A program made the translations under genes and the position numbers. The notes under the pieces are model-generated. The model searched no databases, was not told the origin of the DNA, and saw only the letters and a program-made list of their open reading frames with translations. Below are positions 1 to 35,190 of a stretch of DNA of 35,190 nt, piece by piece. The stretch is from Heliophilum fasciatum (GTDB lineage Bacteria; Bacillota; Desulfitobacteriia; Heliobacteriales; Heliobacteriaceae): the NCBI RefSeq assembly GCF_004341395.1, contig NZ_SLXT01000027.1:1-35190 (forward strand), in the 5' to 3' direction. The first letter of the stretch is position 1, and every line of letters starts with the position of its first letter.

Positions 1-95
1 AGCGAAGCCAAAATACCTTTAAATGGCACAAAATACCATTGAATACTGAGTTTTATGAATCGACCCTTGGGATGCGGAGGTTTTTAGACAGACTC
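1..95. mobile_element. Insertion-sequence end (left copy)
   Basis: Positions 6-95 are the reverse complement of 35101-35190 with one mismatch (A at 78), a 90-bp match. The outer edge is the sequence GACAGACTC at 87-95, which on the other strand reads GAGTCTGTCTAAAAACC, a typical transposon-like terminus. The element body would lie to the left of the window. A match of 90 bp is longer than usual IS terminal inverted repeats, so the two window ends are probably the same terminus of two oppositely oriented copies. No transposase is visible and the family is not assigned. Confidence 0.7.
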
Positions 96-4662: not shown

Positions 4663-5559
4663 TTGGATGCTTCCGTAAAGGCTGCCCGGTTGTCCGTAAT
4701 TTCGAATACGGTCTTGGTCGGTGGCAAGCTGGCCATCGGGTGGATGATTGGATCGGTCAGTGTGATCTCTGAAGGGATTCATTCCTCGTTAGACTTGGTG
4801 GCGGCGATGATCGCTTTGTTTGCGGTGCGGGCGGCAGCGCAACCGCCTGATGAGCGTCATCAATATGGCCATGGCAAAATGGAGAATGTTTCTGGTACGA
4901 TTGAAGCATTGTTGATCTTCGTTGCGGCCATTTGGATCATCTATGAAGGAGTTCAGCGCTTGCTCCATCCTCAGCCGCTGGAGACGGTCGGTTGGGGTAT
5001 TGCGGTGATGGCGGTTTCAGCCATCACGAACTGGTTTATCTCCACGTACTTGATGCGAGTAGGCAAGGAGACGGAATCGGTGGCGCTACAAGCCGATGCC
5101 CTGCACCTGCGGACCGATGTGTACACATCGGTGGGGGTTGTGGTGGGACTCATTGCCGTCGCTGTAACGGGCTTAAGTTGGCTTGACCCGGTAGCGGCCA
5201 TTGCTGTGGCATTTTTTATCATCCATGCGTCGTGGGAGTTGACGCGGGAATCGTTTTTACCGTTGCTCGACACACGGCTGCCGGAAGAAGAAGAAAAGCT
5301 GATCGAAGAAGGTATCAACCAGTATGCCGATCGCTTTCAGGAGTTTCATAAGTTGCGGACGCGGCGATCCGGTGCCGAGCGGCATGTGGACTTGCATTTG
5401 GTCGTTTGTCGTCATCAAACGATGCAGGAAGCTCATGAGTTGGCCCACAATATTGAAGATGAAATCCAACTCCGCTCACCGAAAGCGCAAGTCCTCATTC
5501 ATCAAGAGCCTTGTGAGCGCGAATGTTTCGGTTGTTCCGATGAAGGGCGCCATCGTTAG
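4663..5559 (+). CDS. Cation diffusion facilitator (CDF) family metal exporter
   Basis: Inner-membrane metal/proton antiporter, 298 aa, with about six membrane helices and a soluble C-terminal domain. TM2 carries HSSLD (H40, D44) and TM5 carries HLRTD (H148, D152). The HxxxD pattern in both helices is associated with zinc-type CDF proteins, whereas FieF/YiiP has DxxxD in TM2. The motif HQYGHGKMENVSG in the first cytoplasmic loop is typical. The C-terminal domain contains RHVDLHLVV and ends with a Cys/Glu cluster (CERECFGC) that could bind metal. The TTG at 4663 is the only usable start, since an in-frame stop lies at 4621-4623; GAAAGGGG lies 11 nt upstream. It is a single gene, ending at a terminator shared with pgi. 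Confidence 0.9.
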   Translation: MDASVKAARLSVISNTVLVGGKLAIGWMIGSVSVISEGIHSSLDLVAAMIALFAVRAAAQPPDERHQYGHGKMENVSGTIEALLIFVAAIWIIYEGVQRLLHPQPLETVGWGIAVMAVSAITNWFISTYLMRVGKETESVALQADALHLRTDVYTSVGVVVGLIAVAVTGLSWLDPVAAIAVAFFIIHASWELTRESFLPLLDTRLPEEEEKLIEEGINQYADRFQEFHKLRTRRSGAERHVDLHLVVCRHQTMQEAHELAHNIEDEIQLRSPKAQVLIHQEPCERECFGCSDEGRHR

Positions 5560-5567
5560 AGTTGATC

Positions 5568-5625
5568 AAAAAAAGGCAACGCAGTACGCGGGGGTAGTGG
5601 CCCCCAGTACGCGTCGCCTTTTTTT
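5568..5625. terminator. Bidirectional terminator between CDF gene and pgi
   Basis: AAAAAAAGGCAACGC at 5568-5582 pairs with GCGTCGCCTTTTTTT at 5611-5625 (one mismatch), and a GC-rich inner hairpin (GGGGG/CCCCC) lies between. A-run and T-run on the two sides make it suitable for both convergent genes. Confidence 0.88.
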
Positions 5626-5672
5626 CTTCAGGTATCTTTTCGGATGGAACCGGGTGACCGGCCGATCCGTAC

Positions 5673-7019
5673 TTACCGCTGCAAGCGTTTTTCCAGTTCG
5701 GCTTTGGCCGCTTCGTAGCCGGGCTTGCCCAGAAGGGCGAACATGTTTTTCTTGTACGATTCCACACCAGGTTGGTCAAAGGGGTTGACGCCCAGCATGT
5801 AGCCGCTGATGGCGCAGGCTTTTTCAAAGAAGTAAAAGAGATGGCCCAAGTTATAAGCGTCCGGTTCCGGCAAGGCGATGTGGATATTCGGTACGCCGCC
5901 GTCAACATGAGCGAGCAGGGTACCGGCCATGGCTCGTTCGTTGACATAGTGCATGGATTGGCCGGCGAGGAAATTCAGCCCATCACCGTCGCTTTCCACA
6001 CGGGGAATCTGCAGGTCCCGGCGCGGACGGTCGAAGGTCAGCACCGTCTCAAAAAGCTGGCGCAAACCGTCTTGAATATACTGGCCCATGGAGTGCAAGT
6101 CTGTCGTCAACTGCAGCGACGCCGGGAAAAGCCCTTTGTTGTCTTTGCCTTCACTTTCACCGTAAAGCTGCTTCCACCACTCGACGAGATATTGCGTCCC
6201 CGGTTCGTAGGCGGCGAGCACCTCAATCGATTTGCCCTGCCGGTAGAGATGCTGGCGGGCAGCGGCATAGCGATAGCAAGCGTTGGACGCCAGCGACGGT
6301 TCACGGTAGGCATTCATGGCATCAGCGGCGCCGGCCATCAAGGCATTGATGTCGATGCCGGCCGCAGCGATAGGCAGGAGGCCGACGGCCGTCAACACGG
6401 AGTAGCGTCCACCGATATCGTCGGGGACAACGAAGGTTTCATAGCCTTCATCATCGGCCAACTGCTTTAAGGCACCGCGAGCGCGATCGGTCGTGGCATA
6501 GATGCGGCGCCGCGCTTCGGCTTGGCCGTATTTTTGCTCCATCCACTGGCGCAGGTGGCGAAAGGCGATGGCCGGTTCCGTCGTCGTACCCGATTTGGAG
6601 ATCACATTGATCACCACATCTTTGTCGCCGATGATATCGATCAGATCATTGAGGTAGGTCGGACTGAGTTGGTGGCCGGCAAAATAAACGGCCGTGCCAG
6701 GTCGGCGGTCACGGGGCAACTGGTTATGGAAGCTATGGGAAAGCAATTCCAGGGTGGCCCGGGTGCCGAGGTAGGAGCCGCCGATACCGATGACGATCAA
6801 GACGTCGGCAGCGCAGCGGATACGGGCGGCCGCATTTTGGATGCGGATAAATTCTTCCCGGTCAAAGCTGGACGGCAGATCGAGCCAGCCGGTGAACTCG
6901 CTTCCGGCGCCGCGCCCGCTGTGGAGAAGTTCATGGGCTTCCAGGATGTTGGGTTGAAGCAGTTGCAGATCGGTGTCGGTTACGGCATGGGTCAGATCGA
7001 GGCGGAGTTGGGTACTCAC
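5673..7019 (-). CDS. pgi: Glucose-6-phosphate isomerase
   Basis: Interconverts glucose-6-phosphate and fructose-6-phosphate in glycolysis and gluconeogenesis (cytosol). The 448-aa length matches the short Bacillus-type enzyme. SIS-fold motifs are present: [11 protein letters not shown], the phosphate-binding loop [24 protein letters not shown], the catalytic-glutamate region [12 protein letters not shown] and the C-terminal lysine region [12 protein letters not shown]. The start is the GTG at 7019 (on the minus strand), with AAGGAGG 11 nt upstream. An upstream frame to 7190 would add 57 residues unlike the family. It lies alone on the minus strand, divergent from uvrC, and would join the glucokinase product (13969-14964) to lower glycolysis. 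Confidence 0.95.
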
Positions 7020-7220
7020 AGTTTGAAAAACCTCCTTGTTGGCGTAAACCTGTTTAGCCCGATTAGTCTGTTCTATTCTAGTATTTCCCAAGTTCGCGAT
7101 GGAAGGTGCCCGATCCTCTTTTTGGTGGGTTTTTTTACGGTTATCTTTTGGCAGTTGGCTTTTTCGAAAGCAGGAAGCAAGCGAAGGCACTTGGCTGTGG
7201 TATCATAAGAAGGAGGTGAA

Positions 7221-9116
7221 GTGAGCGTGAACGTACGGCTCCAAGAAAAGCTACAGCACTTGCCGGAAAAGCCCGGTGTGTACTTGATGCGCGATGCCCA
7301 GGGACAGGTCATTTATGTGGGCAAAGCGATCCATCTGAAAAACCGGGTGCGCTCCTATTTTCAGGCGGCGAAAAATCTCACGGCCAAGACGCAAGCCTTG
7401 GTTTCCCATATTGATGATCTGGAGACGATCGTCACCGATTCCGAGTTGGAAGCGCTGATCTTAGAATGTAACTTAATTAAACAACATAAACCTCAATACA
7501 ACATCATGCTGCGCGATGACAAAACCTATCCCTACATCAAGGTCAATGTGCAGGAACGGTTTCCGCGCTTGGTGATCACGCGGCGTCTGGAGAAAGATGG
7601 CGCCAAGTATTTTGGCCCCTACCCGTCGGCCGGCGCCGTCAAAGAAACGGTACAGCTATTACGGCAGCTTTTTCCGCTGCGCACCTGCTCCCGGCAAATG
7701 ATGGAGCAGCGGCGGCGCCCCTGTCTCAATCATCATATTGGCCGGTGCTTGGCACCTTGCTCCGGCGAGGTGGAACCGGGAACGTACCGAGCGATGATCG
7801 ATCATATTCTCGCTTTTTTAGAAGGCAAGACAGATGAACTCTTACGGCGGCTCCGTGCCGAAATGATGGAAGCGGCGGCGGAGCTGGACTTTGAACGGGC
7901 CGCTGAGCGGCGCGATCAGATTCAAGCGCTGGAGCAAGTCTTGGAAAAGCAAAAAGTCTTTTCGGCCGATCAAGCCGATGAAGATGTGATCGCCATGGCC
8001 CGCGGCTTGGATCAAGCTTGTGTGCAAGTGTTTTTTGTGCGTGGCGGCAAGTTGATCGGGCGGGAGCATTTTTTCCTCGGCGGTACGGCCGAGATGGAAC
8101 CGGCGGAGATCTTGACGGCCTTTGTCAAACAATACTACAGCCGCACGGACTACATTCCCGAAGCGATCTTGCTGCAAGCAGCGCTGGAGCCTGAAGCCGA
8201 GGCGGTGCTGATTACGCAGTTTTTGCGGAATAAGCGCGGGAAAAAGGTCGAAGTGCGTGTGCCCAAGCGCGGCGACAAAAAGCAACTGATCGATATGGTC
8301 GCCAAGAATGCCTTGCTGACCTTAGAACAAACTGAGCAGGATCAGCAACGCAAAAAATCGATGACGGAACAAGCGGTGCTCGACCTGCAGGGCTATCTTC
8401 ACTTGGACGAAGTCCCCTGGCGCATTGAATGTTACGATATTTCCAACACCATGGGCACCGAGACGGTGGCGTCGATGGTCGTCTTTGAAGGCGGCGCGCC
8501 GAAAAATGCCGATTACCGGCGGTTTCGCATTCGTACCGTCGAAGGCCCCAACGATTTTGCTTCCATGCAGGAAGTGTTGACGCGGCGCTTTTCCCGGGCC
8601 CGCGCCGAAACGGAGGAGATCGAAGCGGGACGACTCGATCCGATGAGCGCCAAGTTTGCCGTGCTGCCTGACCTGGTGATCATCGACGGCGGCAAGGGGC
8701 AACTCAGTTCGGCGCGGGAAGTGATGCATCAATTGGGCTACGGGGGCATAGCGACCTTTGGCCTAGCCAAGGAAAATGAATGGCTTTTTGCCGAGGGCAA
8801 TCCGGAGCCGATCATCTTACCGCGCCATTCCAAGGCGCTTTATCTGGTGCAGCGGATTCGCGATGAAGCGCACCGCTTTGCCATTACCTATCACCGGCAG
8901 TTACGGGGCAAAGCGCAATTGGTGTCCTTGCTGGATGAAGTGCCCGGTATCGGTCCCAAACGCAAAACAGCGCTCTTGCGCCACTTTGGTTCCGTGACGG
9001 CCATCGCTGCCGCACCGGAGCGGGACGTGGCGGCCGTGGAAGGCATGACCGTGGAATTGGCGGAGCAGGTTATTGCCCACCTGCGCAAGGCGCAAGCAGC
9101 GCAGGCGAACAGGTAG
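7221..9116 (+). CDS. uvrC: UvrABC excinuclease subunit C
   Basis: Makes both incisions around a DNA lesion in nucleotide excision repair. The N-terminal GIY-YIG nuclease (KPGVYLMRDAQGQVIYVGKA) comes first. Four cysteines at about 156, 168, 176 and 180 have the spacing C-x11-C-x7-C-x3-C known for the UvrC iron-sulfur cluster. Then come a UVR motif (ELDFERAAERRDQIQALE), the RNase-H-like nuclease (ECYDISNTMGTETVASMVVF, LPDLVIIDGGKGQL) and a C-terminal double helix-hairpin-helix (VPGIGPKRKTALLRHFG). It is 631 aa, full length. AGGAGGTGA lies just upstream; the GTG at 7227 is an equally plausible start. A small membrane-protein gene follows after 11 nt. Confidence 0.96.
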   Translation: MSVNVRLQEKLQHLPEKPGVYLMRDAQGQVIYVGKAIHLKNRVRSYFQAAKNLTAKTQALVSHIDDLETIVTDSELEALILECNLIKQHKPQYNIMLRDDKTYPYIKVNVQERFPRLVITRRLEKDGAKYFGPYPSAGAVKETVQLLRQLFPLRTCSRQMMEQRRRPCLNHHIGRCLAPCSGEVEPGTYRAMIDHILAFLEGKTDELLRRLRAEMMEAAAELDFERAAERRDQIQALEQVLEKQKVFSADQADEDVIAMARGLDQACVQVFFVRGGKLIGREHFFLGGTAEMEPAEILTAFVKQYYSRTDYIPEAILLQAALEPEAEAVLITQFLRNKRGKKVEVRVPKRGDKKQLIDMVAKNALLTLEQTEQDQQRKKSMTEQAVLDLQGYLHLDEVPWRIECYDISNTMGTETVASMVVFEGGAPKNADYRRFRIRTVEGPNDFASMQEVLTRRFSRARAETEEIEAGRLDPMSAKFAVLPDLVIIDGGKGQLSSAREVMHQLGYGGIATFGLAKENEWLFAEGNPEPIILPRHSKALYLVQRIRDEAHRFAITYHRQLRGKAQLVSLLDEVPGIGPKRKTALLRHFGSVTAIAAAPERDVAAVEGMTVELAEQVIAHLRKAQAAQANR

Positions 9117-9127
9117 GAGGTGGTGGG

Positions 9128-9475
9128 ATGCATTCATTAGTGCTACGGTGGCTGCTTAACACGCTGGCTTTGGTCGTAACGGCATGGCTGATACCGGGGA
9201 TTGCGATTCAAGGCTTTATGGCGGCACTGTTTGCGGCCTTTGTCCTGGGCGTCGTCAATGCAGTGATCCGGCCGATCATTGTCATCTTTACGTTGCCGGT
9301 GAACTTACTGACCTTAGGTTTATTTACGCTGGTGATCAATGCCTTGATGCTGATGCTCGTGTCCTCGCTGGTACGCGGTTTTGATGTCAGCGGTTTTGGC
9401 GCCGCTTTCTTTGGCTCGATATTCTTGGCCATTTCCAGCACCATGTTAAGCTGGTTTGTCCGCGATAGGGAGTAA
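9128..9475 (+). CDS. Phage holin family 4-like four-helix membrane protein
   Basis: A 115-aa hydrophobic protein with four predicted membrane helices and short loops. The motif FAAFVLGVVNAVIRPI and the segment LPVNLLTLGLFTLVINALML are characteristic of the widespread chromosomal YvlD/Phage_holin_4_2 family, which is distinct from true lytic holins. Function is poorly known; some members are linked to envelope stress. AGGAGGTGG lies upstream, and the gene starts 11 nt after uvrC, so the two are probably co-transcribed. Confidence 0.85.
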   Translation: MHSLVLRWLLNTLALVVTAWLIPGIAIQGFMAALFAAFVLGVVNAVIRPIIVIFTLPVNLLTLGLFTLVINALMLMLVSSLVRGFDVSGFGAAFFGSIFLAISSTMLSWFVRDRE

Positions 9476-9512
9476 CGCGATAAGGAGTACCGAGATCGGG
9501 AGTAACAGGTAG

Positions 9513-9549
9513 CAAAAAAGCGATGGCTGTCAGAGAGACTGCCATCGCT
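9513..9549 (-). terminator. Terminator of the diguanylate cyclase gene
   Basis: AGCGATGGC-T-GTC (9519-9531) pairs with GAC-T-GCCATCGCT (9537-9549), with a 5-nt loop and one T-T mismatch. On the minus strand the stem is followed by TTTTTT (A-run at 9513-9519 on the plus strand). Confidence 0.82.
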
Positions 9550-9569
9550 TCGTTGATTCGTGGGGGAAA

Positions 9570-10463
9570 TCAGGCACCGTAATTATGTTTGGTCCGCTTA
9601 ACGGCGTACATTTTTTCGTCGGCTACACTCAACAACTTATCAATGGTCACCTTTTGTTCTGGCACATAAGTGGTGACACCGATGCTGAAGGAGAGCCGAT
9701 AGGGAAGCCGTTCTTGCTGATTAAAATGGAGCAAGTTGAGGCTGAGCCGCTGTTGCATGAGCATGGCAACATCGGCATCCGTGTCCGCGTTCAGGGCCAA
9801 GACGGTGAACTCATCGCCGCCGATGCGCGCGATAATGTCCGAAGTGCGGAACGTGGACTGGAGCAATCGACCCGTCTCGAGCAAAGCGCGATCCCCTTCG
9901 GCGTGACCGAATTTGTCGTTAATCTGTTTGAGGTCGTCCAAGTCAATGTAAAAAAGCAACATGTTCTGGTGATCGCGTTGGGCTAACCGGAGATGACGTT
10001 CACCTAAATGTAAGAAGCCGCGCCGATTGTATAAGCTCGTCAGTTCATCCATTAGGGCCATTTGACACAGTTCATACTGACGGCGATGTCGTTCCAAGGT
10101 ACAATGCAGCGCTAGTGACAGTTGATCCGGATCAAGGAAATGGCTGCACAGAACGTCCTGAGCGCCCTTACGAATCGCTTGGATCGCCAGGGCCGGATCG
10201 ATCTGGTCGGTGAGGACGATCAACGGAATATGGGGGAAGCGTTCGTGGAGATAATGGATATTTTCAATATCATGATCATTGGCGTGATGTAAGGCAAGGA
10301 TCATCAAAGTGATCGGCTCATTGGTCAGAAACGAAATGGCTTCGAAGTAATGATTCACATGGCGAATCGAGAAAAACCAATTATTCTCTCGAAGTAGCGC
10401 CTGAATCAGCATTGCTTCTTGCGGACGGTTGTCCACAAGTAAAATTGTATGCGAATTCGTCAT
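9570..10463 (-). CDS. Receiver-GGDEF diguanylate cyclase with degenerate receiver
   Basis: Predicted to make cyclic di-GMP from two GTP, 297 aa. Residues 1-120 have a response-regulator receiver fold and about 135-297 a GGDEF domain. The active site is intact (GGDEF 215-219, RIGGDEFTVLAL), and an inhibitory I-site RTSD lies exactly five residues before it (206-209). The receiver lacks the phosphoacceptor aspartate: the third strand reads LMILALHH with Ala57 in that place. The acidic pair is D11-N12, and the usual Lys-Pro near residue 107 is Ser-His. Control by phosphorylation is therefore unlikely. No kinase is adjacent. A GGGAGGG lies about 10 nt before the ATG. Confidence 0.9.
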   Translation of the reverse strand: MTNSHTILLVDNRPQEAMLIQALLRENNWFFSIRHVNHYFEAISFLTNEPITLMILALHHANDHDIENIHYLHERFPHIPLIVLTDQIDPALAIQAIRKGAQDVLCSHFLDPDQLSLALHCTLERHRRQYELCQMALMDELTSLYNRRGFLHLGERHLRLAQRDHQNMLLFYIDLDDLKQINDKFGHAEGDRALLETGRLLQSTFRTSDIIARIGGDEFTVLALNADTDADVAMLMQQRLSLNLLHFNQQERLPYRLSFSIGVTTYVPEQKVTIDKLLSVADEKMYAVKRTKHNYGA

Positions 10464-10828
10464 GGAGCAACAACCCTCCCATGATTTGCCTTCCGCTTAA
10501 ATTGTTTCCTATTTTTATGATAGCACAGGATTTAAGTTTGTTAAACCTTCGTATAATAATAAGTATAGTAATACAATAGCATTGAGACAAAGATGCAGCA
10601 AGATGAGTGCAGCAAAAGCACAAAAGCAAACGCCTCGGTAGGTGAATCAGGCAGGATTTCGATCGGCGATCGCGAATATCTGAAAAAACTGGATAAATCG
10701 CATCAAGGCAGGGCAGTCTGGAGAATAATGACGAGCTCTGCTGTTTTTTATCATGGTAAAAATAAACAACGAGCAGGAAGACGAAATGAAAAAAACGAAA
10801 TGGTTAGATCATAATTAAGGAGGGGATC
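10464..10828. other. Long intergenic region upstream of the glucan operon
   Basis: A 365-bp region between divergent genes. An AT-rich block (10501-10580) contains several -10-like hexamers (TATAAT 10552-10557, TATAGT 10564-10569) without good -35 boxes. The rest, about 10600-10800, is transcribed leader if the promoter is there. It includes GATCGGCGATCGCG (10661-10674) and a weak stem ending in TTTTTT near 10742-10749, which could act as an attenuator. I recognise no known riboswitch. A 73-codon frame at 10593-10814 shows no protein-like features. Confidence 0.4.
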
Positions 10829-12409
10829 ATGATGAACACGCCATGGATGGACGATGCAGTGATCTATCAGATCTACTTGCGCGTGTATGGTGAGGAAAAA
10901 GGCAAGTTTGGCACCTTTACCGATGTGCAGGAAGATCTGCCACGGTTACGTGACCTGGGCATCAATACGATCTGGCTCATGCCCTTTTTTCCTGTCGGTC
11001 AGATCCGGCGCAAGGGCGAGGCCGGTTCTCCCTATGCGATTCGGGACTTCAAAGCGATCGCGCCGGAATATGTTGATTGTTCCAAAAAGCAGCGTGATGA
11101 TGAAGCTAAAGTGAATGAACTGGGCCGCAAGCAGTTCAAAAACCTGGTCAAGAAAGCCCATGAATTGAAGATGCGCGTACTCATTGATTTTGTCGGCGAT
11201 CATACGGCTGTCGACAATGTCCTGTTGGATCCGGCCAATCCACCGGAAAAAGGCGGCTATCATCCCGAATGGTTTCTATGGCCTTACGGGACCCGCCGCC
11301 AGATCCTGCTCGGTGACTATCCCCTGGCCCCGGCTGACGATTGGACCGACACGGCGGAGCTGAATTACGGGATTCCCGTGGCCGGCAAGCCCCATGGTGA
11401 TCAATTGTGGTACCACGATGACGGCGATCGCCAGGCCATGTGGGAATATATGATCGGTGTGCTGGAATACTGGGTGCGCGAGTTTGACGTTGACGGCTAT
11501 CGCTGCGATTTTGCCCACTGGGTGCCGCTGGAATTCTGGAAAACGGCCATTTCTCGAGTCAAAGCTTTGAAGCCCGATGTAGCTTTTGTAGCGGAAGCCT
11601 ATGAGCGGACGGCGGAACTGGTCCAAGCCGGCTTTGATGGGATATACGCTTTCGAGCTTTACAACCAACTCAAGACGTTACATCATGAGGTGCGCAACGG
11701 CGATCCTTATTATGAAGTGCCCTATATCCGGAATAAAATCGAGTGGGAAAACAGCCACTATCCGGCAGGCTACCGGATGATGCGCTACACGGAAAATCAT
11801 GATGAGATTCGCGCTACCGTCATGTACGGCGGCATCGAACGCAGTCAAGCCGCTTTTTTGCTGGCATTGACGCTGCCCGGCATGCCGATGATCTATGCTG
11901 GCCAAGAGTGGGGAGAGACGGTGCGGCCGCCGCTGTTTGAAGGTAATTTCGAAGAGATGACCTTCAAACCATTGAACCGGCAGGGAAACTCCGCCTTGGA
12001 GGCCTGGTATCAGCATGTGCTGGCGATTCGCCGGGACAAAACAGCGTTACGTAAAGGTGCGATCCACTTCGTCAACACCAGCAGCGGGCGGGTCGTCGCT
12101 TTTCTCCGGCAAACCGAGAAACAGATCATGCTGATCCTGGTTAACTTTAACGGCGACGCTGCCGGAGAAGAAGTGCACATCGAATTGCCCCAGGCGATCC
12201 TTGATGCCTGTGCCCAAGAAGGCGGCCAGCTTGACGATGTGCTCGGCAAAGGCTTACGCATCCATGTCGGTTCCCATGGGGTTCGCCAGGAAGTGCAATT
12301 GCATCTGGCGCCGTGGCAATCGTTGATTCTGGAATTACGGAAGCCGACGCATCCAGAGCAAGCGAAAACAGTCAGCGGGAAAGAAAAGAAAAACGGAAAA
12401 AAACGCTAA
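10829..12409 (+). CDS. GH13 alpha-amylase-family glycosidase
   Basis: A glycoside hydrolase of the alpha-amylase clan acting on alpha-glucans such as maltodextrin, glycogen or trehalose, 526 aa. The (beta/alpha)8 barrel begins almost at the N-terminus (DDAVIYQIYLRVYG). Conserved regions: RVLIDFVGDHT (region I), DGYRCDFAH with the nucleophile D227, FVAEAYE with acid/base E256, and YTENHDEIR with D325. A beta-sandwich C domain and a Lys-rich tail follow. There is no signal peptide, so it acts in the cytosol. The site AAGGAGGGG precedes tandem ATGs at 10829 and 10832. First gene of an operon with malQ and a glucokinase. The exact subfamily (amylase, trehalose-cleaving or trehalose synthase-like) cannot be fixed by eye. 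Confidence 0.88.
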   Translation: MMNTPWMDDAVIYQIYLRVYGEEKGKFGTFTDVQEDLPRLRDLGINTIWLMPFFPVGQIRRKGEAGSPYAIRDFKAIAPEYVDCSKKQRDDEAKVNELGRKQFKNLVKKAHELKMRVLIDFVGDHTAVDNVLLDPANPPEKGGYHPEWFLWPYGTRRQILLGDYPLAPADDWTDTAELNYGIPVAGKPHGDQLWYHDDGDRQAMWEYMIGVLEYWVREFDVDGYRCDFAHWVPLEFWKTAISRVKALKPDVAFVAEAYERTAELVQAGFDGIYAFELYNQLKTLHHEVRNGDPYYEVPYIRNKIEWENSHYPAGYRMMRYTENHDEIRATVMYGGIERSQAAFLLALTLPGMPMIYAGQEWGETVRPPLFEGNFEEMTFKPLNRQGNSALEAWYQHVLAIRRDKTALRKGAIHFVNTSSGRVVAFLRQTEKQIMLILVNFNGDAAGEEVHIELPQAILDACAQEGGQLDDVLGKGLRIHVGSHGVRQEVQLHLAPWQSLILELRKPTHPEQAKTVSGKEKKNGKKR

Positions 12410-31493: not shown

Positions 31494-31847
31494 GGGGGCG
31501 TAATGGTTTCGACGGGGAATGGGTAGGTACAGGAAGCGAGCAGTGGTCACCGCAGGCCACTTTAAACAGGCGGTACTGCTTAACTGCAGAAGATAACTAC
31601 GCTTTAGCTGCTTAATTGCAGCCTAACCTCTTACCTTCTGTACTCCCGGTGAGGGATAAGGGGTCATTTTAGGGAGTTAGTCACGGTCAATTCTCGGAGA
31701 CTGGTGGCGAAATTTATCGAGATAGCCTGACCAACGCTTTGTCGCTTGTGCGGAAGGATGGCGAAATCTAAAACAAGAGACTACGCTCGTAGATGCCTCT
31801 GTTGACTCTTCTTCGGACGCTGGGTTCGACTCCCGCCGCCTCCACCA
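31494..31847 (+). ncRNA. ssrA: tmRNA (SsrA RNA), tag AEDNYALAA
   Basis: Rescues stalled ribosomes with SmpB. The 354-nt RNA begins GGGGGCG (31494-31500), which pairs with CGCCTCC (31837-31843) before the encoded ACCA end, giving the acceptor-like stem. The T-arm loop TTCGA with its GGG/CCC stem lies in CTGGGTTCGACTCCCG near the 3' end. The tag frame is GCAGAAGATAACTACGCT onward (31586-31615), giving AEDNYALAA with a TAA stop. The tag ends in LAA, the ClpXP-recognised form. A tyrosine recombinase gene directly downstream suggests the 3' end serves as an integration site. Confidence 0.97.
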
Positions 31848-31993
31848 AAACATAACGAAAAGACCAGCTAAAACGCTTGTTTTTTCCCGACCATAAAGCA
31901 ATAAAATGGACGTGTCCGAAGAAGCATAATTTGCGTTTTGAGTTCTTCGGACGGGCAAGAGATGTACGTGTTTTTGTTCATCGGACTCTTGCC
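31809..31993. repeat. Putative attachment-site region: repeats at the ssrA 3' end
   Basis: TTCTTCGGACG occurs inside ssrA (31809-31819) and again at 31943-31953. An inverted copy, GTCCGAAGAA, is at 31914-31923, forming a 10-bp palindrome with the second copy. A separate inverted repeat GGCAAGAG/CTCTTGCC lies at 31954-31961 and 31986-31993. Such clustered sites between a tRNA-like 3' end and a recombinase gene fit the island-side attachment region. The far attachment site is outside the window. Confidence 0.5.
31858..31885 (+). terminator. Probable ssrA terminator
   Basis: AAAAGACCAGC (31858-31868) pairs with GCTTGTTTTTT (31875-31885), with one mismatch and one G-T pair and a 6-nt loop; the T6 is inside the stem's 3' arm. 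Weaker than the other terminators here. Confidence 0.5.
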
Positions 31994-32020
31994 AAGTCAT
32001 TCGGTTAAATGTTATTCGAA

Positions 32021-32051
32021 CCACTCTTTTGGGGCATAGCCAAAGGAGTGG
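32021..32051 (+). promoter_or_regulatory. Hairpin covering the recombinase ribosome binding site
   Basis: CCACTCTTTTGG (32021-32032) pairs with CCAAAGGAGTGG (32040-32051), 12 bp with one G-T pair and a 7-nt loop. The right arm contains the binding site AAAGGAG (32042-32048), and the GTG start is 5 nt after the stem. Translation would be low unless the hairpin is opened. Confidence 0.72.
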
Positions 32052-32056
32052 TTTTT

Positions 32057-33010
32057 GTGTCTGTAAAGAAGAAAACTCGTCTGGTAAAGCTGGCGGAACG
32101 CCGGGAAATGTCCTGGGAGAGGGCCACGCAAGAGTTTTTAATGACCAAAAAGGCGGAAGGCAAGTCCGAGCGAACATTGAAGGATTATGGGTATCATTTG
32201 CGGTGGTTTATCGAGCGGTATCCTGATGTTACCTTCAATGATGAGACCGGACTCAAAAGACGGGCTATTGAGTATATGGCCCAAGATGCAAAGCCAGCGT
32301 ATTACAATAATAAGCTGACCTACTTGCGAACCTTCTTTAACTGGTGCCTGGCGGAAGAGGTGCTTGTGGAAAATCCGCTGCGGAATTTTAAGAAGCGAAA
32401 AGCCGATGAGCGGATCGTTCAAATGGATCACGATACAATAAAAAAGTTGTTGGCCCAGCCGGACCAGACAACCTATCCAGGGTTGCGTGACTATGCCCTG
32501 TTGCTTTTGCAGTTGGATACTGGGATACGACCAAATGAAGCTCTTACACTGTTTCCCGGGGATCTTAACCTGCCAGCATATGAGGTTCGTGTGAGGGCAG
32601 AGAATGCCAAAACGCGAATTGCCAGGACGTTGCCCATTAGCCCGGTAACGGCAAAAGCGATAGAAAAGCTATTGCATGTTCGTCCCGATGATTGGGGTGA
32701 TAAGGCCCCTGTATTTTGTTCCTGTGAAGGAATAAAAATGACACCGACGGGGTGGTATCGCCGGGTAAGTGCTTATGGGGAGAAGATGGGGGTTGCGATT
32801 TATCCGTATCAGTTGAGGCATACGTTTGCTTTGGAGTTTTTGCGGAATGGCGGGAATTCATTTGCCTTACAGAAGACGATGGGGCATTCAGATATGAATA
32901 TGACGAAGAGGTATGTGGCTCTGGCAGATAAGGATATGAAGCAGCAGCATGAGTTGGCGTCGCCTGTGGCGAAGTTGGTGCAGGAGAGAAAACGAATAAC
33001 AAAGCTATAA
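32057..33010 (+). CDS. Tyrosine recombinase (phage-type integrase)
   Basis: Site-specific recombinase, 317 aa. SAM-like N-terminal DNA-binding domain (about 19-108, WERATQEFLMTKKAEGKSERT) and a C-terminal catalytic domain. Catalytic residues seen: Arg158 in DTGIRPNEAL, Arg254-His255 in YQLRHTFA (the first His of HxxR is Tyr251), His277 in MGHSDM and the nucleophile Tyr286 in KRYVAL. It probably inserts its element at the 3' end of ssrA, which lies 209 nt upstream. The GTG at 32057 has AAAGGAG 8 nt upstream, inside a hairpin; a start at 32009 would place the hairpin in the coding region. A strong terminator follows. Base composition is between that of the host genes and of the AT-rich genes behind it. 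Confidence 0.92.
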   Translation: MSVKKKTRLVKLAERREMSWERATQEFLMTKKAEGKSERTLKDYGYHLRWFIERYPDVTFNDETGLKRRAIEYMAQDAKPAYYNNKLTYLRTFFNWCLAEEVLVENPLRNFKKRKADERIVQMDHDTIKKLLAQPDQTTYPGLRDYALLLLQLDTGIRPNEALTLFPGDLNLPAYEVRVRAENAKTRIARTLPISPVTAKAIEKLLHVRPDDWGDKAPVFCSCEGIKMTPTGWYRRVSAYGEKMGVAIYPYQLRHTFALEFLRNGGNSFALQKTMGHSDMNMTKRYVALADKDMKQQHELASPVAKLVQERKRITKL

Positions 33011-33212: not shown

Positions 33213-34337
33213 ATGAAGTTTAGAACAGAGATAATTAAAATAATCGAAGGAGGACTAGAAAGAAACAAAGATAAAGTGAAAAATTACGCAATGTTACTTG
33301 GTCAAAAGCTTCGTGATGAGGGTGACGAGAAGTTTGCCGAAAGAATCGTACAGATAATTAATAATAAATCAGTTCACCCAGTTTATATGGATGAATTTAT
33401 GTCAAAGCCGCTAGATCAAGATAGCAAACTTGACATGGTTGATGTATTAACGTCGTCAGAAATAAAACAAGATAAAATAATTTTGTCTGAGAACACATGG
33501 AAGAAAATAGATAATTTTATCTTATCCATAGAGCATAAAAGTGAATTCATAGATTTAGGGGTAAGTTTACCAGATACCTTACTGTTATACGGACATCCGG
33601 GGTGTGGAAAGACTAGTATTGCGGAGTATGTTGCCAGTCGAGTTGAACTACCTTTAGTTACAGCGAAACTCGACGGTTTGGTATCGTCTCTCCTAGGAAG
33701 TACAGCGAAGAATATTAGGAAAATCTTTGATTACGCAAAGGAACGGCCTTGTATTCTCTTCTTGGACGAATTTGATGCTATTGCAAAAGCAAGAAATGAT
33801 GTTCATGAGGTTGGGGAACTAAAAAGAGTAGTAAATAGCCTAATACAAAATATTGATGATTTTAGCAAAAACAATATTCTGATCGCCGCAACTAATCACG
33901 AAACGTTATTAGACCCTGCGGTTTGGAGAAGATTCTCCTTTGTGGTTGAGGTCCCGAAGCCTTGTGATAAAGAAATTATAAAACTTATCAAACTCTTTTT
34001 AGGGCCATTCAATTATGAATTTCTTAATGAAGCAAGAAAAAGCCAAATATTGATAGGCTTGTTAAATGGGTTATCCCCATCGATTATTAAGAACATTTGC
34101 TATAACGCAGTTAAGGCCATGGTGATTAATAAGGAATCTATGGTTTCGTTTGCAAGGATAGTATCAGAAATCTACTATTATATAGGGATTAAAGATATTC
34201 CCTTGCCAAAATTTTTAAGTAATAATGGCGTTAGCCAGCAGGAAATATCCAAAGTAATGGGAATTTCTTTAAGGCAAGTAAGAAACCATCTTTGTGAGGG
34301 GGCTTTAAAAAATGAAAGGCAAACCACTTCCGATTAA
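33213..34337 (+). CDS. AAA+ ATPase (FtsH/Cdc48-like) paired with an S8-type protein
   Basis: A 374-aa ATPase in an AT-rich segment. The N-terminal helical part is residues 1-110. The AAA+ core has Walker A GHPGCGKTS (127-135), Walker B ILFLDEFD (D185, E186), sensor-1 Asn228 in AATNHE and arginine-finger candidates R239/R240 in WRRF. A C-terminal helix-turn-helix follows (about 338-361, GVSQQEISKVMGISLRQVRNHL). In other bacteria similar ATPases are encoded beside subtilisin-like proteins and found in accessory regions; the role (proteolysis or defence) is inferred, not shown. The ATG at 33213 has GGAG 8 nt before it. The next gene starts inside its 3' end (26-nt overlap), so the two are translationally coupled. 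Confidence 0.85.
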   Translation: MKFRTEIIKIIEGGLERNKDKVKNYAMLLGQKLRDEGDEKFAERIVQIINNKSVHPVYMDEFMSKPLDQDSKLDMVDVLTSSEIKQDKIILSENTWKKIDNFILSIEHKSEFIDLGVSLPDTLLLYGHPGCGKTSIAEYVASRVELPLVTAKLDGLVSSLLGSTAKNIRKIFDYAKERPCILFLDEFDAIAKARNDVHEVGELKRVVNSLIQNIDDFSKNNILIAATNHETLLDPAVWRRFSFVVEVPKPCDKEIIKLIKLFLGPFNYEFLNEARKSQILIGLLNGLSPSIIKNICYNAVKAMVINKESMVSFARIVSEIYYYIGIKDIPLPKFLSNNGVSQQEISKVMGISLRQVRNHLCEGALKNERQTTSD

Positions 34338-35112
34338 AATCTTTGAAAAAAGAGATGTTGACGAGAGGGCAGTAGAAGCTGGGGGAGATAAAAAACCCCC
34401 CAAGTGGGTATTAAAAGGAAAAGAATTAAAAGAGAGAGCTATGACCTTGAAGAAAGACTTAGATGATAGCCAACCTATAATTGAATCAAGAATGAAGAAG
34501 CATAAAATTCCTGCTATAGTCAAGGCTTGTGTAATTGATGACGCTTTAGCCAAAACACATCGTAATGATATTGCCCAACTGCTTTCGGGTAGGGGACCGG
34601 ATTATACAATAGGCATTATCGGTGAAAATGAACTATTAATAAGGATTGATAAGCCGGGGCAATTAAAAGAAGTATCTGATAATATAAGTGATTTGGAGAA
34701 AAATGCGAAGGCTATATCAGGGGTTAAAAAAATTGATGTTTTCAACCCCAACATTAGTATAGGCAAAATTGTTGCCAATAATGAAGGTAAGTTTGTCTTA
34801 AAAGTAATACTGGTTGATTTTAATGATAAAAGAATTAATGAAACAAATCTACAATATTTCAAGCGGTGGATAACAAATAGGCAGGGCATAAGCTTGGATA
34901 AATCCGTAAGGTATTCTTCTAAGCTTGAAGTGCATCAAGTAGTTGTTGACTCATTAGATAAAATAGAAGATTTAACCGATTTTAGTGGCATTCTATCCGT
35001 TGAAGAAATGCCAAGAATGGAGGGGATAGAGGATGATTTTTTTCCTGGGACTTGGATTGAAGTACCTAATCCCGAAGAAAATGTAGAATACCCTATAATA
35101 GAGTCTGTCTAA
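34312..35112 (+). CDS. N-terminal part of a subtilase (S8)-like partner protein, truncated by the IS end
   Basis: The 266 codons show no catalytic triad. The first 263 residues are native: a Lys/Asp-rich N-terminus (KIFEKRDVDERAVEAGGDKK), a charged mixed fold and an acidic end (EGIEDDFFPGTWIEVPNPEE). The last three codons (ESV) and the stop are supplied by the IS terminus that begins at 35101. From memory, related proteins continue after YPII with a GxxDSGI-type segment holding the catalytic Asp, so the break would sit at the domain border; this is inference. ATG 34312 has GAGGGGG upstream within the ATPase gene. AT-rich like its partner. Probably non-functional as a protease here. Confidence 0.72.
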   Translation: MKGKPLPIKIFEKRDVDERAVEAGGDKKPPKWVLKGKELKERAMTLKKDLDDSQPIIESRMKKHKIPAIVKACVIDDALAKTHRNDIAQLLSGRGPDYTIGIIGENELLIRIDKPGQLKEVSDNISDLEKNAKAISGVKKIDVFNPNISIGKIVANNEGKFVLKVILVDFNDKRINETNLQYFKRWITNRQGISLDKSVRYSSKLEVHQVVVDSLDKIEDLTDFSGILSVEEMPRMEGIEDDFFPGTWIEVPNPEENVEYPIIESV

Positions 35113-35190
35113 AAACCCCCGCATCCCAAGGGTCGATTCATAAAACTCAGTATTCAATGGTATTTTGTGCCATTTAAAGGTATTTTGGCT
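35101..35190. mobile_element. Insertion-sequence end (right copy)
   Basis: Begins GAGTCTGTCTAAAAACCCCC and is the inverted copy of positions 6-95 with one mismatch. It interrupts the S8-like gene. The element body continues beyond the window. The internal sequence contains AAAATACC-type repeats (GGTATTTT twice at 35159-35186). Confidence 0.75.

Follow-up and report, generated by a model that had tools for sequence, protein, structure and literature searches.

An IetAS locus in the ssrA-recombinase island of Heliophilum fasciatum, with ietS very probably split by a multi-copy insertion sequence

What is the unusually small gene that overlaps an AAA+ ATPase gene at one extremity of a Heliophilum fasciatum contig, and does the pair represent a new type of defence module? 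The window, a stretch of 35,190 nt, is contig C27 in full, and its 3' end falls within an insertion sequence (IS). The two overlapping genes that had been predicted there proved to be real when recomputed: ORFs of 374 aa (33213-34337) and 266 aa (34312-35112) overlap by 26 nt. They occupy an AT-rich island, as had also been proposed, with a GC content of 35% against 54.6% for positions 1-31000 of the window, where the lowest-GC stretch of 1.9 kb has 48%; the expected recombinase associated with ssrA is likewise present upstream. The features of this region are as follows.

31494..31847, + strand: ssrA (tmRNA), with the tag AEDNYALAA (ARAGORN)
32009..33010, + strand: tyrosine recombinase gene adjoining ssrA (PF00589, E=3e-26)
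33213..34337, + strand: ietA, encoding an AAA+ ATPase of 374 aa, uninterrupted (PADLOC, NCBIfam, Walker motifs, AlphaFold)
34312..35100, + strand: ietS, 5' part only, 263 codons, stopping at the start of the IS (PADLOC IetS profile)
35096..35100, no strand: TAATA, a 5-bp flank with a copy on contig C19 beside the opposite IS end, forming a target-site duplication (flank comparison)
35101..35190, + strand: left end of an IS with a DUF772-type transposase, inverted repeat GAGTCTGTCTAAAAAC (multi-copy termini)
1..95, - strand: left end of the same IS at the opposite end of the contig (multi-copy termini)

The locus is a member, by descent rather than as an intact system, of IetAS (IteAS/SgiAT), which has already been named both as an anti-phage system and as a toxin-antitoxin pair; DefenseFinder calls it Gao_ietAS, as printed in PMC11811056. 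The ATPase matches the PADLOC IetA profile PDLC02196 over almost its entire length (E=8e-132; residues 1-360 against profile positions 1-368 of 374), and the small partner matches positions 1-257 of the 781 in the IetS profile PDLC02201 (E=6e-63). In NCBIfam, where the proteins are named IteA and IteS, both scores fall under the strict equivalog cut-offs (for IteA, NF042959, 368.9 bits and E=3e-110 against a cut-off of 510 bits), hence the pair is a divergent IetAS. It shares with the described systems (PADLOC IetA/IetS; NF042959, NF042956) the order of ATPase then S8 peptidase on one strand, overlapping or adjacent, and its IetS covers nearly all of PDLC02201 when sequence from two contigs is counted. 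It differs from them in that ietS is split by an IS, in the NCBIfam scores below cut-off and in a host distant from the bacteria that have been tested. The original prediction of a defence-type module was therefore sound in recognising a conserved AAA+/S8 pair, but missed both the existing name of the system and the IS break.

The identification of IetA as an AAA+ ATPase is borne out by the nearly full-length profile match and by the Walker A (G127-T134) and Walker B (D185/E186) motifs, which are invariant among 26 homologues. Its AlphaFold model (pLDDT 86.5) has the AAA domain of PAN as its top PDB fold match, and the predicted AAA domain lies nearest to the unfoldases PAN, FtsH and p97. The PDB contained no full-length match to a solved structure for either protein, only the AAA domain of IetA and the subtilase domain of IetS being covered. 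Less secure is the proposed C-terminal helix-turn-helix: three helices are predicted at residues 331-371, but the Pfam matches lie below the curated cut-offs (Sigma70_r4_2, 20.0 bits against 25.7; HTH_23, 16.6 against 24.6) and alignment with homologues reveals that the segment is missing from some IetA subfamilies.

Paenibacillus jilunlii, Sporomusa malonica and S. silvacetica possess the same pair, with IetA identities of 54-58%; the overlap of ietA and ietS measures 26 nt both in S. malonica and in another genome (G048), and 14 nt in P. jilunlii. IetS has 792-796 aa in this set, nearly the sum of the 263 and 528 residues of H. fasciatum, and 783-796 aa across the intact relatives; the predicted structure of an uninterrupted one begins with alpha/beta modules, followed by a subtilase domain and then a beta-rich C-terminal part. 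For a wider census, the IetA profiles and the IetS profiles were each searched on their own, every search covering 83-398 related genomes, and around 65 loci were scanned in all six frames; general subtilases of 413-455 aa (L110-L112) and a 198-aa fragment (L114) were excluded. Each of the 49 loci whose IetS is continuous had IetA directly upstream on the same strand, and none of the roughly 65 loci combined a continuous IetS with a missing or broken IetA. Homologues of the two proteins are thus adjacent, as the original prediction anticipated, and the full-length partner homologues scanned do have a Peptidase_S8 domain.

Published work on SgiAT of Salmonella genomic island 1 offers the closest guide to how an intact pair behaves: its S8 protein is toxic in Escherichia coli, the ATPase counteracts this toxicity, and among 412 ATPase and 187 S8 homologues the latter are always beside one of the former (PMC5006074). 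SgiAT and the IetA/IetS pair of Agrobacterium pTi resemble the present locus in being an ATPase antitoxin and a subtilisin-like toxin in a mobile or integrated element (PMC5006074). SgiAT is intact and active whereas the toxin gene here is broken, and its likeness to the H. fasciatum locus rests on the published description. By analogy with these relatives, IetS in the intact family would be a cytoplasmic subtilisin-like toxin, kept inactive by IetA. Interference with IetA, or the sensing of phage replication, might free IetS, which would cleave cell proteins and stop growth, thereby restricting the spread of phage or guarding against loss of the mobile element; IetAS has been listed with the systems that phage core replication proteins activate (PMC10732053). 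The original prediction had instead envisaged an ATPase that senses or unfolds a target and a protease that acts on it. The module itself is conserved, but the antitoxin-toxin relation is better supported (PMC5006074). Applied to the intact module, that proposal would make the pair a processive AAA+ protease, in which the ATPase unfolds phage or host targets and feeds them to the subtilase; this would suit both the resemblance of the AAA fold to PAN, FtsH and p97 and the strict pairing of ietA with ietS. We consider it unlikely, as the toxicity of the S8 partner alone, and its suppression by the ATPase (PMC5006074), argue for restraint rather than feeding, and such a machine would in any case be broken in this genome.

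That break lies at the 3' end of the window. Only 263 residues of the 266-aa ORF belong to IetS, the final three (ESV) and the stop codon being encoded by the IS. Contig C19 carries the remaining 528 residues, from 264 onward, at its end; this part was located by a match to IetS profile positions 255-779, and it matches PDLC02201 from 257 to 779 (E=8e-237) and PF00082 (E=3e-34). On the window side the reading frame ends with YPII, within a sequence finishing in TATAATA, at which point the IS begins. On C19, the opposite terminus of the IS, which has the inverted repeat GAGTCCGTCTAGGAAC, is followed by TAATA and then by an open frame beginning IGVLDSGI, such that the protein runs on exactly as YPII-IGVLDSG. 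We infer from the IS ends and their flanks that this C27-IS-C19 junction is real. The break precedes the catalytic Asp by four residues, and lies directly ahead of the Asp motif in an alignment with 26 relatives; consequently the 266-aa ORF cannot give rise to an active protease. Counting the parts on both contigs, ietA is followed on the same strand by an S8 peptidase gene matching IetS, yet the window copy lacks a continuous frame carrying Asp, His and Ser. These residues (motifs GVLDSG, HGTFVA and GTSFSTP) are all on C19, which is why the locus qualifies by descent and not as an intact system. From these sequences it is very probable that ietS has been split by a multi-copy IS within the IetAS locus of the ssrA-recombinase island, with ietA left intact; recombination among the copies of the IS may later have moved the two halves apart.

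The unusual shortness of the partner gene is thereby explained by an IS having cut a protease gene in two, and the pair ceases to be a candidate for a new defence system: it is probably a dead, inactivated copy of a known one. This copy would have lost its protease activity, leaving IetA as an orphan antitoxin, perhaps accompanied by the 266-aa N-terminal fragment. It appears very improbable that the pair works as it stands, with the fragment acting despite its lack of a protease domain, say by pairing with or inhibiting a different IetS. The reading frame of the fragment runs unbroken from a start to a stop codon, and the N-terminal third is modelled in the intact relative as distinct alpha/beta modules, in which the beta-alpha-beta-beta-alpha-beta order of subtilisin prodomains occurs twice; the best PDB match is a subtilisin with its prodomain (ProN-Tk-SP). 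However, the IS supplies the C-terminal three residues and the stop codon, the end of the ORF has been fixed by the insertion and not by selection, and all 49 continuous IetS relatives are full length. Still harder to credit is an assembly artefact, with the gene intact and contigs misjoined to IS ends, for although the assembly is fragmented (73 contigs) and its contigs often end at IS copies, the two junctions each join a proper IS terminus to the same TAATA flank in exact frame, the signature of a true insertion, and assemblers do not create target-site duplications.

The inverted repeat of this IS reads GAGTC[T/C]GTCTA, and the element bounds contig C27 at both ends, breaking the assembly. 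Approximately 22 left-end and 22 right-end sites occur in the genome, nearly all at the ends of contigs, and a copy that reaches further into contig C4 encodes the DUF772 transposase (E=9e-11). The variants of the IS ends differ in identity, which suggests that there are at least two subtypes. At one site (L020:928; C2:145925-145997) a left end is almost directly joined to a right end, producing what looks like a MITE derived from the IS.

A similar chromosomal setting was seen in another genome of the same family (G001), in which a recombinase 64% identical to that of H. fasciatum also lies behind ssrA, with different AT-rich cargo (L125, G001:C1:198000-216000, positions 5300-11645, compared with 31494-33010 of the window). 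A second recombinase family is found at the far side in both genomes, in the opposite orientation. We considered whether ssrA, the first recombinase, the cargo and the second recombinase might constitute a bounded two-recombinase element, also represented in G001, but make no such claim, as the second recombinase is multi-copy in this family and its orientation differs. The ssrA 3' end has no second copy, as expected of an att duplicate, at up to two mismatches, and it has no 12-mer or longer in common with the C19 stretch; hence the far end of the island was not placed.

A second, divergent IetAS locus is present in the same genome at C22:20204-22919 (L047:6205-8920), adjoining type I restriction genes. 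Its IetA is uninterrupted, but its IetS breaks off after 539 aa and lacks the catalytic Ser region. A search with PDLC02198 did not find the missing part in the assembly, and it appears to have been lost rather than split. Judged by sequence, single-chain protease activity is precluded for both IetS proteins of this genome.

Across the census, IetA was retained with IetS broken or gone at 14 loci. In eight, an interrupted or truncated IetS lies beside a continuous IetA (C27, C22, L052, L056, L070/L108, L076, L086 and L109), and in the other six IetA is alone, five of these coming from one family. At L080, IetA is broken and IetS absent. In one genome (G349) ietS is cut near codon 107 between two contigs, and in its sister (G326) the frame break is much further downstream. 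That the toxin gene never occurs without its antitoxin gene is the pattern of a toxin-antitoxin pair, and one-sided decay, with IetS lost and IetA kept, fits IetS being the toxin and IetA the antitoxin. The census is no more than suggestive in this respect, given that IetS is twice the length of IetA and the loci are not independent; were breakage to depend on length only, with IetS making up 68% of the pair, all eight of eight falling in IetS would have a chance of about 0.046. Since both loci of H. fasciatum combine an intact IetA with a broken IetS, it is conceivable, if rather improbable, that orphan IetA is kept by selection after the loss of IetS, either as an anti-addiction factor against IetS on incoming plasmids or islands or for some other task. 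The decay pattern is the sole mildly interesting aspect of the locus: seen twice here, it recurs in further genomes and on a plasmid of Enterococcus faecium, and offers simple genomic support for harm by IetS and restraint by IetA in a system the mechanism of which is still described as unknown in published papers.

Separately, L059, L060 and L071-L073, all from one family with genomes of 5.6-7.3 Mb, contain a clade of stand-alone IetA-like ATPases that are missing the first 40-70 residues and have no S8 neighbour.

The E. faecium example is plasmid pVB6171_p1 (NZ_CP072732), on which IetA is intact and ietS is cut by an IS256-family element of around 1.3 kb flanked by an 8-bp duplication. Both the IS and the insertion site (nt 1783 of 2346) differ from those of the window copy, and a sister plasmid carries an uninterrupted version of ietS. 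On these E. faecium plasmids, the ietAS pair is flanked by two genes encoding TIR-domain proteins (L126, NZ_CP072732, 2236-9052).
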